Shown here: in pieces, positions 2,844-35,674 of the stretch | Position numbering within the stretch: the first letter of the stretch is position 1 | Layout: each line of letters begins with the position of its first letter | IMG/VR virus record: IMGVR_UViG_3300025121_000011 | Location: 1 to 64,000 of that record | Source: a virus | Reading direction: 5' to 3' (one strand) | Length of the DNA: 64,000 nt | Made by a program: the position numbers and the translations under genes | The notes under the pieces: generated by a model | What the model saw: the letters and a program-made list of their open reading frames with translations, nothing else | What the model was told of the DNA's origin: nothing | Databases searched by the model: none

Positions 2844-2885
2844 CTACAATATTATTATAATATCATCGGTATAAGTATATTGTAG
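2844..2885 (+). promoter_or_regulatory. Leader hairpin touching the RBS of the 2894 gene
   Basis: CTACAATAT (2844-2852) is a perfect reverse complement of ATATTGTAG (2877-2885). The right arm overlaps the first two bases of the strong Shine-Dalgarno AGGAGGT (2884-2890). The loop contains TATAAT (2856-2861). The structure could modulate translation of the next gene, or the loop could hold a promoter -10 box; a matching -35 at normal spacing is not seen. Confidence 0.4.
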
Positions 2886-2893
2886 GAGGTAAA

Positions 2894-3283
2894 ATGATGC
2901 AGTATGTTGAAGTAAGACATAATCTATATATTTGTTTTAATCCATTTGAAATTGTTGAAGAATCAAGAAAAGTTAATGGGTGTGGAAATAAGTATTATAA
3001 AATTCCTATTATATTATTAATGTTTTTAACTCCAATATTAGGTGGGTTATTTGTAATAGCCTTTCCAATGATTATATTCGCTTCTATCATTTATTCTATC
3101 TTTGCAATAATATTTGGAAATATGAAAGAAGATGTTTTAGGCTTTGGAGTTCAAGAATATGATCCAATTATATCTTATTTAGCAAATCGTGAAATAAAAG
3201 ATTTACCATTAGAAGAAGAAGAATTAGAAGAAGAATTAAAAGAGTTGGTATCTGAAGTTGAAATAGTTAGAAAATCTGAATAA
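2894..3283 (+). CDS. Small membrane protein, unknown function
   Basis: 129 residues, start ATG 2894 behind AGGAGGT. A hydrophobic region from about residue 37 to 75 (PIILLMFLTPILGGLFVIAF and IIFASIIYSIFAIIF) can form two membrane helices. It is followed by a short linker and a very acidic end (LPLEEEELEEELKELVSEVE). No family recognised. It stands alone between array 1 and a long non-coding stretch. Confidence 0.8.
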   Translation: MMQYVEVRHNLYICFNPFEIVEESRKVNGCGNKYYKIPIILLMFLTPILGGLFVIAFPMIIFASIIYSIFAIIFGNMKEDVLGFGVQEYDPIISYLANREIKDLPLEEEELEEELKELVSEVEIVRKSE

Positions 3284-5673: not shown

Positions 5674-6126
5674 ATGAGCCAAGAGAAATATGAAGCCAAA
5701 ATTCAAAAATATATACTTCTTATAGAGGCTAATCCAAATGATAAAACTCTAGATGATATAAGATTTGAAGTCACACTTCATCAGTTTTATCCCATTACGT
5801 GTCGAGATATAGAGATTGGGTGTGAATGTCCTGTTGGCTGGCGTAAAATTGTAGAATGTGCAATTTCCGCTATAGAAGAGATAGCAACAAATACCACTTC
5901 TTCTCCACCGCAAGTGGTTCAAATAAAACAAAAATACGGCACATTAAGAATATATATGATGTCAGAAGGCCATCCAGATGTTAGTAGAATTATAGATTTA
6001 GCTGAAAAGAAGTGTCATCGGACATGCACAAAATGTGGAGACTCTGGAATATTTAGAACTCAAATTCCTTGGGGTGGAGTATTGTGCGATCATCATTATG
6101 AGATATGGGTGACAGAGCATATTTAA
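5674..6126 (+). CDS. Small phage protein with C-terminal Cys/His zinc-binding end
   Basis: 150 residues, start ATG 5674 behind GGAGGT. Near residues 90-100 it has KYGTLRIYM, the signature of a widespread, unnamed group of small phage and bacterial proteins (usual form KFGTLRFY). After it come CTKCGDSG (two Cys) and VLCDHHYEIW (Cys-His-His), which look like a treble-clef type zinc site. The middle has CECPVGWRKIVECA. Function of the group is not known; it is soluble and small. Confidence 0.75.
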   Translation: MSQEKYEAKIQKYILLIEANPNDKTLDDIRFEVTLHQFYPITCRDIEIGCECPVGWRKIVECAISAIEEIATNTTSSPPQVVQIKQKYGTLRIYMMSEGHPDVSRIIDLAEKKCHRTCTKCGDSGIFRTQIPWGGVLCDHHYEIWVTEHI

Positions 6127-13454: not shown

Positions 13455-13816
13455 GGGGGCGAAATAGATTTCGACAGGGTGGATTAAATTAATGGTGCAA
13501 GTCGTCTACGATAACAATAGACGTTAAAGTTGTTATAAAAAAATCAATTGCTGAATTAAAACTCGCAGCTTAATCTTTAAGATTAAGTCCAGGTTTCTAA
13601 CCACCTGGTTTCCAAGGTTAGATAAGCGGTTGGCCACGCTGACAGAAAACAAATGCCAAAATGGTTACCCTCATTGTATGAGGTGGAATTCCTTAGCTCA
13701 TTTAAGGAATGGTTGGAAAAAAGAGATACTTTGCTTATTTAGAGAAATAAGACAAGCTTGTAAATGACCAGATGTTGAAGCTGCTTTGGACGAGGGTGCG
13801 ATTCCCTCCGCCTCCA
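13455..13816 (+). ncRNA. ssrA: tmRNA (transfer-messenger RNA)
   Basis: 5' end GGGGGCG (13455-13461) pairs with CGCCTCC (13809-13815), one G-U, then discriminator A13816. The tRNA-like domain has the diagnostic TTTCGACAGGG at the 5' side and the T arm GAGGG-TGCGATT-CCCTC at the 3' side. CCA is not encoded (CTA follows). The tag frame ends I-K-K-S-I-A-E-L-K-L-A-A with stop TAA at 13571-13573; the resume codon is probably one of the two GTT codons at 13529-13534. tmRNA rescues stalled ribosomes and tags the peptide for proteolysis with SmpB. No smpB is seen in the window, so host SmpB would be used. The length of about 362 bases is normal. Confidence 0.93.
13532..13573 (+). other. tmRNA tag-peptide reading frame
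   Basis: Read in the frame ending at TAA 13571, the codons give V-I-K-K-S-I-A-E-L-K-L-A-A. The LAA end is the usual protease degron read by ClpXP-type proteases. The first residue is uncertain by one codon, because two GTT codons are adjacent. Confidence 0.75.
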
Positions 13817-13855
13817 CTATTTAACGGTGTCTTGTAAAGGAGGGTTTTGAGAATA

Positions 13856-15193: not shown

Positions 15194-15235
15194 TATGTCA
15201 TTTTTTTCTTAGAAGGTGGACAAAAAAATGACATA
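15194..15235. terminator. Perfect 14 bp inverted repeat, candidate bidirectional terminator
   Basis: TATGTCATTTTTTT (15194-15207) is the exact reverse complement of AAAAAAATGACATA (15222-15235), with a 14-base spacer. The T7 and A7 tracts face each other inside the arms rather than trailing the stem, so it is unusual for a terminator and could also be a protein-binding palindrome. It is the only structured item seen in the 265-base gap 15062-15326. Confidence 0.4.
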
Positions 15236-15326: not shown

Positions 15327-15986
15327 ATGGATAGAAAAGTACATTGGGTTTCTAGATCAAAAGATAAAAAGACAGGAGAGGTTTTGGTTTCTTATTCTCC
15401 AAAAGAAACTTGTCCAAAAACTTGTTCTCTTAAAAAAGGAGGGTGTTACGCATGGGGTCTTTATTATTTAAAATCGTTGGGAGATAAATTATCCTCTGGA
15501 AAACTGGTTCCAAGAACATTAGATATTGCTATTAAGAATATCTTGCCTACAACAAAAATAGCGCGTCATAGGGTGGCTGGAGATGTTGTCGGGGATGTAG
15601 CTGCTACAATACAAGAATGTCGGGATCTAGATTCGGCGGGATTAATTAATATAGGATATACTCACAATTGGAGAGCAGCAGAATCTCAACCCTTAAAGCA
15701 TTACTTCAGAGCATCATGTCAATCAGTTGAAGAGGTATTAATCGCTAGAGAAATGGGTTGGGCAACAACTTTGATTGTCTCACAAGGTGTAGATAAAAAA
15801 ACCAAACTTCCTAATGGTGAATTTTCAGTAAAATGTCCGGCTAAACATGATATCGCTGGAAAGAAAGATGTTACCTGTAATACCTGCACATTATGTCGAG
15901 TGGATGGTAAAACGGAAAAGACAACAGTTATGTTTGAAGTGCATGGAAATAATTCAACTATTCAGAAGGCTAATGGAAAAATTTGA
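15327..15986 (+). CDS. Cys-rich phage protein of an uncharacterised family
   Basis: 219 residues, start ATG 15327 behind ATAGGAG. N-terminal cluster CPKTCSLKKGGCYA (about 31-44), then R-H-R-V-A-G-D, and a C-terminal cluster with CPAKH, CNTCTLC. Phage proteins with the CP-x-x-C-x-x-K/R-x-x-GCYA and H-x-x-GD pattern form a known but functionally undescribed group. The Cys pattern suggests an iron-sulfur or zinc site. The barrel-like succession of strands (GLINIGYTHNW, TTLIVSQG) suggests a TIM-barrel-like enzyme, which is my inference. Alone between two gaps. Confidence 0.7.
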   Translation: MDRKVHWVSRSKDKKTGEVLVSYSPKETCPKTCSLKKGGCYAWGLYYLKSLGDKLSSGKLVPRTLDIAIKNILPTTKIARHRVAGDVVGDVAATIQECRDLDSAGLINIGYTHNWRAAESQPLKHYFRASCQSVEEVLIAREMGWATTLIVSQGVDKKTKLPNGEFSVKCPAKHDIAGKKDVTCNTCTLCRVDGKTEKTTVMFEVHGNNSTIQKANGKI

Positions 15987-30235: not shown

Positions 30236-30270
30236 AACTCCTTCATAAGTATCTTTAATTTCAAGGAGTT
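30236..30270 (+). promoter_or_regulatory. Hairpin masking the ribosome site of the 30274 gene
   Basis: AACTCCTT (30236-30243) is the perfect complement of AAGGAGTT (30263-30270), which is the Shine-Dalgarno of ATG 30274. The 8 bp stem (plus a T-G pair) has a 19-base loop. Folding would hide the ribosome site, so translation may need melting, a ligand or a protein. The stem is short and AT/GC mixed, so the effect may be mild. Confidence 0.5.
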
Positions 30271-30273
30271 GAT

Positions 30274-30732
30274 ATGAGTAAATTGTCAAGATTGCATCCA
30301 ATGGCAATAGGTTTGTTAACCGTTAAGCGTACAGAGATACCTTTATCTGAATTTGTGATCTCTGCTTATACGATGATCGATCAACGATCAGAATCTTTAA
30401 CAGATAAGTGGATTAAAGATATAAATAGTTGGTGTGAAAAAATATTATTAGGTATGTCTCTTGGAAATGAATATTCTTTAAAAATTGGAGATATAATAAA
30501 TATTAAAGATGTTACTGTAATTAAGCGTCGAGCAAAGAAATATAAAACTTCGGGATATCCAGCCTTAATTACAAAAGATTTTTATGGTTGGAAATATTGG
30601 ATGATTTGTCCAAAAGCATTTGAATTTGCAGTTGGAGAGCGGGTTTCAATTACTGGAACTATCAGAGATATTAAAGATGGGATGGTCTTTTTGCGTCAAC
30701 CTAGTGATGTAATTTCTTTTAAAAATAAATAA
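30274..30732 (+). CDS. Unknown protein with OB-fold-like C-terminus, 152 aa
   Basis: ATG 30274 behind AAGGAG. Helical N-terminal half. C-terminal half of alternating strands (SLKIGDIINIKDVTVIKRRAK, FAVGERVSITGTIRDIKDGM) with the GERVSITGTI pattern of an OB-type barrel that often binds RNA or single-stranded DNA. The OB assignment is inference. Precedes purA and its leader. Confidence 0.65.
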   Translation: MSKLSRLHPMAIGLLTVKRTEIPLSEFVISAYTMIDQRSESLTDKWIKDINSWCEKILLGMSLGNEYSLKIGDIINIKDVTVIKRRAKKYKTSGYPALITKDFYGWKYWMICPKAFEFAVGERVSITGTIRDIKDGMVFLRQPSDVISFKNK

Positions 30733-30736
30733 GTCT

Positions 30737-30804
30737 ATAATATTTTCTCCAGGTACATTCCTGGTGGCTCACGCGTTTGGCGTGTGTTCTGGAGAAAATA
30801 TTAT
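30737..30804 (+). promoter_or_regulatory. Possible switching RNA leader that masks the purA ribosome site
   Basis: A perfect 16 bp stem forms between 30737-30752 and 30789-30804. Its left arm holds TCTCC, which pairs with GGAGA, the Shine-Dalgarno of the purA ATG at 30803; the start codon itself is inside the right arm. A competing hairpin, CCAGG (30749-30753) / CCTGG (30760-30764), uses the same left-arm bases and would free the ribosome site. A third, CACGC/GCGTG (30770-30784), can form in either state. The whole 70-base gap is used. No known riboswitch consensus is recognised. Confidence 0.6.
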
Positions 30805-31804
30805 GATTGAATATGCTGATGTAGTATGTGGTGTATCTTTTGGTGACGAAGCAAAAGGTAAAGTAACTAGTTTTTTGGCTGCTACAGGTAATTATAATAT
30901 TGTAGCTAGGTTTGGCGGAGGAAATAACGCGGGCCATACAGTATATGTTGATGGTAAAAAATATAAGACGCATTTGGTTCCCTCTGGAGTGTTTCACGGA
31001 ATAACATCGGTTATTGGTCCGGGATGTGTTCTGCATCCAGAATCCTTTAATAAGGAATTGGAATACTTGTCAGAAAATGGATTTGATACATCTTTGGTAA
31101 AGGTTTCACCAAAATGTCATATTGTTCAGGAAAAGCATATTGAATTTGATAAGAAAAATTTATCTAATTTATTAGGTACAACTGCTCGTGGAATAGCACC
31201 GGTATATGCCGACAAGTATGCTAGAATAGGCATATTGGCTGAACAAGTTTTATCAGAAGAATTGTTGTGGCGTGATACTCTACATGGTAGAATATTATGT
31301 GAGGGGGCTCAAGGGATTTGGCTAGATATTGATTATGGTACATATCCATATGTAACTTCCAGTGTTACTCTTCCATATGCGGCTTGTAGTTTAGGATTTC
31401 CGCCTCAAAAGATTAGACATATTTGGGGAGCTGCTAAAGCGTATGATACTAGAAGTGGGGTAGATCCATTATTTCCAGAATCTTTATTAGATGATCCAAT
31501 CTTATTAAATATAGCTGATGCTGGATCAGAATATGGTGTAACAACAGGTCGTAGGCGTAAAGTCAATTGGTTAGATCTTGATCGCCTAATTAAGGCCGTT
31601 AATATAACTGGAACAACGCATATTGTAATAAGCAAATTTGATGTTTTAGAGATGGTAGGAGCTTTTAAATTATTTCGAAATAAACAGTTAATGGATTTTT
31701 GTTGTTTGTTGGATATGGAAGATTTCATTGATATAGAATTAGAAACGAATTGTCCACTTCTGGTTGAGCGACATCACGCATTTTCTCCAGAAACAATAGA
31801 TTAG
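30803..31804 (+). CDS. purA: Adenylosuccinate synthetase (PurA), short viral/archaeal-like form
   Basis: 333 residues from ATG 30803 (GGAG at 30791-30794); an in-frame GTG 30764 would add 13 residues but lacks a site. Joins IMP and Asp using GTP to make adenylosuccinate for AMP. Visible motifs: SFGDEAKGK (12-20) with catalytic Asp15, FGGGNNAGHTVYV with His45, TTARGIAPVYADK, CEGAQGIWLDIDYGTYPYVTSS and GVTTGRRRKVNWLDL. Cellular enzymes have about 430 residues, so this is a compact form as in archaea and phages. The retained Asp argues for ordinary PurA rather than PurZ (2-aminoadenine pathway), where this residue is reported changed. Translation probably controlled by the leader hairpin. Confidence 0.93.
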   Translation: MIEYADVVCGVSFGDEAKGKVTSFLAATGNYNIVARFGGGNNAGHTVYVDGKKYKTHLVPSGVFHGITSVIGPGCVLHPESFNKELEYLSENGFDTSLVKVSPKCHIVQEKHIEFDKKNLSNLLGTTARGIAPVYADKYARIGILAEQVLSEELLWRDTLHGRILCEGAQGIWLDIDYGTYPYVTSSVTLPYAACSLGFPPQKIRHIWGAAKAYDTRSGVDPLFPESLLDDPILLNIADAGSEYGVTTGRRRKVNWLDLDRLIKAVNITGTTHIVISKFDVLEMVGAFKLFRNKQLMDFCCLLDMEDFIDIELETNCPLLVERHHAFSPETID

Positions 31805-33563: not shown

Positions 33564-34134
33564 TAAAACCTCATTAATCCTTCTTTTTTTAATTCCATTT
33601 TTATTATGCGGATATATTCCTAAAAATTATAAACCATTAGCTGATGTATCTTTTGAAATAGTAGAACAGTTTGATGATTCTAAAATATATAGACCAACAA
33701 ATACAATATTTTCAGGTCAATTTATTTCTAAAGAAGTATCTCTTATTAAAGATAGTTTAATGGATTTTTCAAAAGAATGGCGATTGCCAGAGAAATCATG
33801 TAAAAGTCTTGATGTCGATTATTATGTGATAGATAGTAAAATTATTAATGATGTAAAAAGATTCCCATTAACATTAAATGATATTTCAGATCGATGGGCT
33901 ATGTATAGCCCGTATCACGAGAAATCTGGTTATTCTGTTATTATGTTGGCAAATTCAACATATTCTACATCAAGAATTAATAGCGTAATTTTAGCTCATG
34001 AATATGCTCATTATGTCTATGATAAAAATTGTTGGAGTGACTATTGGTCTGGTAATACAGAAACTTTTGCGCAGGCATTTCATAAATATTATGGATTAAA
34101 TAGATTTGGGAGAATATATAATGCGGTTAGATAA
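33535..34134 (+). CDS. Exported zinc metalloprotease-like protein (HEYAH)
   Basis: 199 residues, ATG 33535, overlapping the upstream gene by 29 bases; ATG 33547/33550 also possible. An N-terminal hydrophobic stretch (SLILLFLIPFLLCGYIP, about 13-29) resembles a signal or lipoprotein peptide, but the residue before Cys is not the usual small one. Zinc motif VILAHEYAHYVYDKNCW, and about 17 residues further ETFAQAFHKYYG with a likely Glu third ligand (gluzincin-like). Probably acts in the periplasm or at the surface of the host. Substrate unknown. Confidence 0.7.
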   Translation: MSKKMMELNNKTSLILLFLIPFLLCGYIPKNYKPLADVSFEIVEQFDDSKIYRPTNTIFSGQFISKEVSLIKDSLMDFSKEWRLPEKSCKSLDVDYYVIDSKIINDVKRFPLTLNDISDRWAMYSPYHEKSGYSVIMLANSTYSTSRINSVILAHEYAHYVYDKNCWSDYWSGNTETFAQAFHKYYGLNRFGRIYNAVR

Positions 34135-35674
34135 AATTAAAAGATGTTTGGCATATGATGATGTATTGCTGGTACCAAATAAATTATCAACTGGATTATC
34201 TAGATTGGATATGGATTTATCAACTTTAGTTGGTAATTTAAATTTGAAAATTCCAATTGTGTCATCACCAATGGATACTGTTACCGAATCTGAAATGGCT
34301 ATTGAAATAGGTCGGCTTGGTGGATTGGGAATATTGCATAGATTCAATACCCCGCAAGAACAGGCTGAAATGATTCGTGTCATGCTTTTACCGCCGAATG
34401 CAATGAAGGTCGGACGTTCAGCATATATCGCACCAGCAATTGGTGTAACTAAAGATGAATTGGAGAGAGCCAAATATCTATATAATGAATTTGGTAAAAC
34501 AATTGATATGATGGTTGTTGACGTAGCAAACGGATATCATGTATTAATGCGGGATACAGTTAAATATATTCAAGATTTAACACAGGGTGATGTACAAATT
34601 ATGGCTGGAAATGTTGCTACAGAAGAGGGGTTTTTGTTTTTGGCAGAATTAGGGGTAAATGCGGTCAGAGTTGGAATCGGGGGAGGATGTCACACTGCTG
34701 ATACAAAAGTCTTGATGACTACTGGTTATTATAAAAATATAAATCAGGTCATAATTGGAGATTGGGTTATAAATAAATTTGGTCAACCGGTACAAGTTAA
34801 GGGTGTGATAAACAATGGATACAAAAAGGTTGTTAAGGTTTGTGTTGCAAACTGGAAAGAGCCTATTTATGTTACACCAGAACATGAATATTGGCGAGCC
34901 AGTTTATCCAATGTAGATTGCTTTCCAGATGAAGAGTGTGTTAATTTTAAATTAAGTTGGGCGCCGATTGGTGAAATTGAAAGGGGAGATGTTTTATTAA
35001 CTCCTAGAAATATAGAATTTGATGGGGTCGAGAATGGACTTTCATATTATTATTCTGAGGTTATCTCTATAGAAGAATGTCCTATAGATATGGAGGTTTG
35101 GGATATAGAGATAGATTGTCCAACTCACAGTTTTGTAGCCAACAATTTGATTGTTCACAACTCCATTTGTAAGACTCGAATACAAACAGGATTTGGCATG
35201 CCAACTTTGGCTTCTATTGATGATTGCGCTGATGCTGCAATAAAAACAGGTGTTTCTATTATAGCTGATGGTGGAATTAAATATCCTTCTGATGTTGCTA
35301 AAGGAATTGCGGCTGGTGCGTCCGCAGTAATGTGTGGCGGTATTTTAGCCGGAACAAAAGAATCTCCTGGCGAAGTTATTTATGATAAAGAAGGAAAAGC
35401 TTGGAAGAAGTATCGAGGTATGGCGAGTACTGAAGTGCAAAACGAAAAAAGAGGAGGAATGAAAAAGGGTACTTGTGCGGAAGGTGTATCGACATTAATC
35501 CCATATCAAGGTAGCTTAAAAAGAGTAATTGAAGAATTTACAGGAGGTATTCGCTCTGCTCTTACTTATAATAACTCTAAAACACTTGATAACTTTAGAG
35601 AAACAGCTTTGTTTGTAGAAATTACAGGTTCTGGACTTTCAGAATCTCATGCTTATGGAACAGTAAAAAGATAG
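34121..35674 (+). CDS. IMP dehydrogenase / GMP reductase family protein with intein
   Basis: 517-residue precursor from ATG 34121 (GGGAG upstream; TTG 34106 rejected). N-extein: LAYDDVLLVPNKLST, IPIVSSPMDTVTE and VGIGGG. C-extein: SICKTRIQTGFG with catalytic Cys350, IADGGIKYPSDVAK, GGILAGTKESPGE and KYRGMAS. After splicing, about 359 residues remain, without CBS domains, which is GMP-reductase-like length; IMPDH usually has about 485. The sequence KRGG near the flap also leans to GMP reductase. IMPDH oxidises IMP to XMP; GMP reductase converts GMP to IMP. With PurA nearby, GMPR would drive GMP toward AMP. The exact activity is open. Confidence 0.9.
   Translation: MRLDKIKRCLAYDDVLLVPNKLSTGLSRLDMDLSTLVGNLNLKIPIVSSPMDTVTESEMAIEIGRLGGLGILHRFNTPQEQAEMIRVMLLPPNAMKVGRSAYIAPAIGVTKDELERAKYLYNEFGKTIDMMVVDVANGYHVLMRDTVKYIQDLTQGDVQIMAGNVATEEGFLFLAELGVNAVRVGIGGGCHTADTKVLMTTGYYKNINQVIIGDWVINKFGQPVQVKGVINNGYKKVVKVCVANWKEPIYVTPEHEYWRASLSNVDCFPDEECVNFKLSWAPIGEIERGDVLLTPRNIEFDGVENGLSYYYSEVISIEECPIDMEVWDIEIDCPTHSFVANNLIVHNSICKTRIQTGFGMPTLASIDDCADAAIKTGVSIIADGGIKYPSDVAKGIAAGASAVMCGGILAGTKESPGEVIYDKEGKAWKKYRGMASTEVQNEKRGGMKKGTCAEGVSTLIPYQGSLKRVIEEFTGGIRSALTYNNSKTLDNFRETALFVEITGSGLSESHAYGTVKR
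34688..35161 (+). other. Mini-intein in the IMPDH/GMPR active-site loop
   Basis: 158 residues (precursor 190-347), from Cys1 (CHTADTKVLMTTG) to the C-terminal VHN, with Ser as +1 residue of the C-extein. Block B TPEHEYW and block F VWDIEIDCPTHSFVANN are present. No LAGLIDADG endonuclease, so it is a mini-intein. It splits the catalytic loop GIGGG / SIC, so the enzyme is inactive until splicing. Confidence 0.92.

Follow-up and report, generated by a model that had tools for sequence, protein, structure and literature searches.

A start-site-occluding hairpin predicted before a giant-phage purA gene, and candidate ribosome-bypass elements in related purA genes

The purA locus and its leader

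The DNA analyzed here (a stretch of 64 kb, hereafter the window) belongs to a virus record of 335 kb with 33% GC. It contains a homolog of purA, an assignment made in the earlier note and upheld by the match of the product to the Pfam family Adenylsucc_synt (6.7e-83) and by the best PDB matches, which were 2e-60 for PurA and only 3e-6 for PurZ. The gene is flanked by a gene encoding a protein of 152 aa and by a DHH phosphoesterase gene, and an IMP dehydrogenase gene with an intein is located 2.3 kb downstream. The following features make up the locus:

30274..30732, + strand: upstream gene, 152 aa, without family match; its stop codon (30730-30732) lies 4 nt before the 5' arm
30736..30741, + strand: TATAAT hexamer extending over the first bases of the 5' arm; would set +1 at 30748 if it serves as a -10 element
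30737..30752, + strand: ATAATATTTTCTCCAG, the 5' arm of the stem, complementary at every base to the purA ribosome-binding region
30749..30764, + strand: alternative hairpin CCAGG-TACATT-CCTGG, 5 bp (30749-30753 / 30760-30764)
30753..30788, + strand: 36-nt loop, 56% GC
30770..30784, + strand: small loop hairpin CACGC-GTTTG-GCGTG, which can coexist with the long stem
30789..30804, + strand: 3' arm of the stem, CTGGAGAAAATATTAT, containing the purA SD (GGAG) and the AT of its ATG
30791-30794: SD GGAG, within the 3' arm, 8 nt before the ATG
30803..31804, + strand: purA homolog (adenylosuccinate synthetase), 333 aa, uninterrupted

The 70 nt that separate the purA ATG from the upstream stop codon contain the stem of 16 bp, which is 100% complementary, and its 36-nt loop; the first two bases of the ATG at 30803 are paired in the 3' arm. 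The 3' arm starts with CTGGAGAA, and TGGAGAA is the most over-represented 7-mer in the upstream regions of this phage; therefore, the 3' arm was regarded as an ordinary ribosome-binding site (RBS) and the 5' arm as its exact complement. The GC content of the loop, set against 33% for the genome, ranked within the highest 0.16% for intergenic 36-mers; this value points to selection acting on the RNA structure or to a foreign origin.

Several other elements were observed in the vicinity. The intein of the IMP dehydrogenase gene (window 34121-35674) is inserted after VRVGIGGG, and in L002 an intein-like sequence starts at the same point of the gene and ends in a stop codon, followed by another ORF. 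The phage also encodes a tmRNA (window 13455-13819) with the tag VKVVIKKSIAELKLAA. A search for the T4-type capsid protein Gp23 gave no match, and no control gave a signal either.

Strength of the stem and its distribution

The perfect 16-bp stem hiding the ribosome site and start codon, as described in the earlier note, was confirmed by complementarity, folding, and shuffling. The folding energy of the 181-nt region was -52.3 kcal/mol (z = -4.5), and none of 200 shuffles was as good. The surveys of stems and gene starts covered the 64-kb window. A single perfect stem of at least 16 bp was found there and none in 40 dinucleotide shuffles of the window, while the number of perfect stems of at least 14 bp was three, versus 0.075 expected from dinucleotide shuffles. 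The predicted cost of opening the purA RBS, 14.2 kcal/mol, was the highest among the 76 gene starts of the window (median 4.5), a few others of which reached 11-13 kcal/mol. Shuffled versions of the purA leader had a mean cost of 5.4 kcal/mol, with 0/200 as high as the native value. Comparison of 82 non-redundant phage purA leaders demonstrated that this one was the most occluded and that only L036 behaved similarly; RBS occlusion as a general trait of phage purA was rejected, as the mean and median were at or below the null.

Other stems were noted in the window. The upstream gene has its own SD stem of 9 bp with one G-U pair (TAACTCCTT/AAGGAGTTG, window 30244-30271), and a second 9-bp SD-pairing stem, with TATAAT between its arms, lies at window 2844-2885 before the gene at 2897. 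A perfect 14-bp intergenic stem (TATGTCATTTTTTT/AAAAAAATGACATA, window 15194-15235) was found upstream of the gene at 15327. The survey of SD hairpins among the other genes of the window gave five cases versus 2.7 expected at a score of 18, with no clear excess over shuffles. The purA stem itself fell outside this survey because the filter permitted at most one G-U pair.

Conservation of the pairing in relatives, for which the earlier note had suggested a covariance search and whose absence it counted as a refutation, was not observed. The closest relative found, the 332-kb phage L027, has a PurA 73% identical and an upstream gene product 61% identical, and the same gene order except for one extra 85-aa gene before purA; no such stem was present in its purA leader. 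The stem was absent from all 81 other phage purA leaders, drawn from collections that may lack very near kin, and nothing comparable preceded purA in nine related records (L027 and eight others), apart from an unrelated stem in L036. Relatives of the upstream gene were found by direct search, although none were detected by short peptide patterns. A single-sequence covariance model recovered only the hairpin itself and its own reverse strand in the 335-kb genome and nothing at purA in the nine relatives; one extra match in this combined search, inside a primase-like coding gene, was judged to be due to chance. No homologous copies of the stem, on which covariation might be counted, were found. 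Among viral contigs, the literal stem pattern gave eight matches, all rejected as lying in unrelated context, and the literal pattern of the alternative hairpin gave none. A BLAST search of the leader against isolate phages returned short chance matches only, and L145, a purA relative in bacterial genome contigs, had neither the stem nor an insert.

The stem of L036 (~2412-2504) has 13 bp with one G-U pair (CATTACTTTTCTC/GAGGAAAGTAATG) and covers the purA start and RBS; its 5' arm is inside the upstream coding sequence, and 0/200 shuffles were as occluded. A different leader was observed before the purA SD in L017 (~2885-2965), L112 (~5915-6000), and L035 (~1595-1670). It resembles an H-type pseudoknot, is conserved among the three, and combines a covarying stem 1 (CTACTAA/TTAGTAG, CTATTAA/TTAATAG) with a GCCTTG/CAAGGC pairing; no Rfam match was found for it.

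Judged by the folding models, the hairpin is real and places phage purA under a strong translational lock that is specific to this lineage, and the predicted occlusion itself, whatever the mechanism of release, is highly probable.

Release of the purA start site

The earlier note had interpreted the leader as a two-state design in which a second hairpin excludes the stem and frees the start. This second hairpin, CCAGG/CCTGG, does exist, but it displaces only the top of the stem. Enforcing it changed the folding energy from -35.8 to -31.7 kcal/mol, at a cost of 4.1 kcal/mol; the lower ~12 bp and the AUG did not open (P unpaired 0.01-0.06), and within GGAG just the first two bases were freed. 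The two structures are thus largely compatible, and in the full-length leader they do not make a clear on/off pair, so the proposed mutual exclusivity was not retained. An RNA thermometer was rejected, with a predicted opening cost of still 13.3 kcal/mol at 42 C and 9.3 kcal/mol at 60 C, and so was an intrinsic terminator, for which a GC-rich stem followed by a U run was not found.

Several explanations of the hairpin were compared. A switch operated by a ligand or protein, either a riboswitch or autoregulation by PurA or another phage protein, would account for a GC-rich folded loop in an AT-rich genome upstream of a purine gene, and the position in the leader of a purine metabolism gene is shared with purine-responsive riboswitches. 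Unlike these, the leader has no covariance-model match and no conserved aptamer in relatives, and such a lack of conservation is unusual for an aptamer. The absence of a known riboswitch class, stated in the earlier note, held at two Rfam thresholds: only the tmRNA was found in the window at the gathering threshold, and E<=10 added weak matches to unrelated sRNAs and miRNAs, far under their thresholds. Since the two hairpins are also not mutually exclusive at the start codon, a switch of this kind is very unlikely, and the riboswitch reading received no positive support. An RNase III-type or other endonuclease might instead cut the stem and thereby free the RBS or destabilize the mRNA. Such processing is compatible with the perfect helix of 16 bp and the structured loop, located between two co-directional genes, but an RNase III site of only 16 bp would be short, and we consider this explanation distinctly improbable.

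Translational coupling relies on the hairpin bringing the upstream stop codon beside the purA start, such that terminating ribosomes open the lower stem and re-initiate. As in coupled phage gene pairs, the upstream stop codon abuts the occluding stem, and the AUG is predicted to open (P unpaired 0.90) when a ribosome occupies the mRNA as far as about 30742. The purA stem of L036 has its 5' arm within the final codons of the homologous upstream gene, the classical arrangement for coupling, whereas here the arm follows the upstream coding sequence. With the lower stem opened, however, the SD is still paired (P unpaired 0.003); coupling alone therefore leaves the SD hidden, and it is an unlikely explanation. 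The stem could also be a recent, possibly neutral inverted duplication of the RBS that arose by template switching and has no selected regulatory role. The 5' arm indeed complements an ordinary RBS at every base and was not found in relatives, but a stem of this kind would be expected to reduce purA expression strongly and, unless beneficial, to be removed by selection, and the GC-rich, separately folded loop is left unexplained. This origin appears quite unlikely.

By analogy, our tentative preference, at somewhat less than even chances, is a T4-type start-site-occluding hairpin rather than a metabolite-sensing riboswitch; this established design is simpler and accounts for the anatomy. In T4 genes e, soc, 49, and I-TevI, the SD and AUG are sequestered in long early transcripts, with late promoters located in the 5' strand of the structure and a 100-fold effect on lysozyme (PMC3014915). 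In the purA leader, read-through transcripts from upstream would be kept untranslated by the hairpin, and PurA would be made from shorter transcripts with a 5' end within or downstream of the 5' arm. These may originate from a phage promoter overlapping the 5' arm (TATAAT at 30736-30741, +1 at about 30748) or from RNA processing. In the short transcripts, the CCAGG/CCTGG hairpin would tie up the remnant of the 5' arm and leave the RBS accessible, and such a lock and release would set the timing of PurA synthesis in infection or restrict its amount.

A scan of 5' ends showed that the predicted opening cost falls from about 14 kcal/mol to a local minimum of 2.9-3.3 kcal/mol at 30747-30748, which coincides with the +1 expected from TATAAT. 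The cost rises again to 6.3 kcal/mol at 30758, where the CCAGG arm is lost, and drops once CCTGG is also lost. A small hairpin that protects the open state would be expected to give such a modelled profile. Phage-specific promoters are plausible, given the sigma-like factors that this phage encodes (56825-57541, with a weaker match near 226.4 kb). Sigma-70-type promoter scoring found no promoter and no -35 match at the hairpin, and Gibbs sampling of upstream regions gave no promoter motif clearly above shuffled controls; the candidate promoter therefore rests on one AT-rich hexamer, and this hexamer is partly dictated by its pairing with the RBS. Two further points weigh against the T4-type reading: the stem was not seen in relatives, and purine synthesis is not an obvious late function.

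The likeness to the T4 hairpins and to mobE of Aeh1 lies in the sequestration of the SD and start upstream of a phage gene and in a 5' arm over an AT-rich, -10-like hexamer. The differences are that the gene encodes a purine enzyme, the perfect 16-bp stem encloses a GC-rich loop of 36 nt, the hexamer departs from the T4 late TATAAATA, and the promoter is putative. One feature of the T4 type, an SD and/or AUG within a stable helix on long transcripts, is predicted for purA; membership in this class is probably best described as incomplete, the internal promoter being a candidate.

Interrupted purA genes in related phages

Seven distinct related phage purA genes were found to be interrupted at one exact site, between W-G (TGG GGT) and D-E-A-K-G-K, while the purA of the window is continuous. 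The candidate bypass gaps are as follows:

L002/L018, ~3043-3054: bypass candidate gap
L035, ~1721-1732: bypass candidate gap
L017, ~3006-3018: bypass candidate gap
L112, ~6041-6053: bypass candidate gap
L027, ~2472-2500: bypass candidate gap
L144, ~2959-2988: bypass candidate gap
L037/L038, ~2472-2503: bypass candidate gap

TAA or TGA directly follows GGT, and the gaps of 12, 12, 13, 13, 29, 30, or 32 nt span all three frames; thus, no single frameshift or readthrough rule restores PurA. Each gap with its flanks forms a predicted hairpin (-11.8 to -20.6 kcal/mol), with a UUCG loop in three of them. The resume codon is preceded by GGC, GGT, AGC, or AGT (RGY); after this triplet come GAY GAR GCN. 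Downstream of the gap, the frames are open for 318-327 codons, and in the five pairs compared synonymous codon differences were about equal to or above replacements. From sequence comparison, the open frames and the substitution pattern fit what working enzymes would show. Two of the seven interrupted genes were each seen in two separate contigs from different samples. An endonuclease-like gene (DUF7487, with a weak TnsA-like match) adjoins the interrupted purA of L017 (2026-2877, - strand), and an apparent remnant of this gene was observed in L112 (~5830-5960, - strand).

T4 gene 60, long almost the sole phage example of ribosome bypass, has a GGA take-off codon, an adjacent stop, a hairpin with a tetraloop, and the neighboring homing endonuclease gene mobA (PMC3014915, PMC5009743). 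The purA candidates resemble it in the take-off with adjacent stop, the hairpin, and, in L017, the adjoining endonuclease-like gene. By sequence, the seven purA genes are candidates for gene-60-like translational bypass, and among the papers searched none described bypass in purA. The search around the hairpin has likely exposed a family of natural ribosome-bypass elements, which is possibly more important than the purA hairpin.

A broader and rather doubtful reading is that purA in this giant-phage group is throttled at translation by RNA devices that differ between lineages, namely an RBS-locking hairpin in the window and in L036 and in-gene ribosome-bypass elements in the seven other phages. 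If true, this would imply repeated selection to throttle or time PurA. Hairpins that lock translation are known chiefly from lysis and homing genes of T4, and the proposed T4-type hairpin would add to them a giant-phage gene of nucleotide metabolism.
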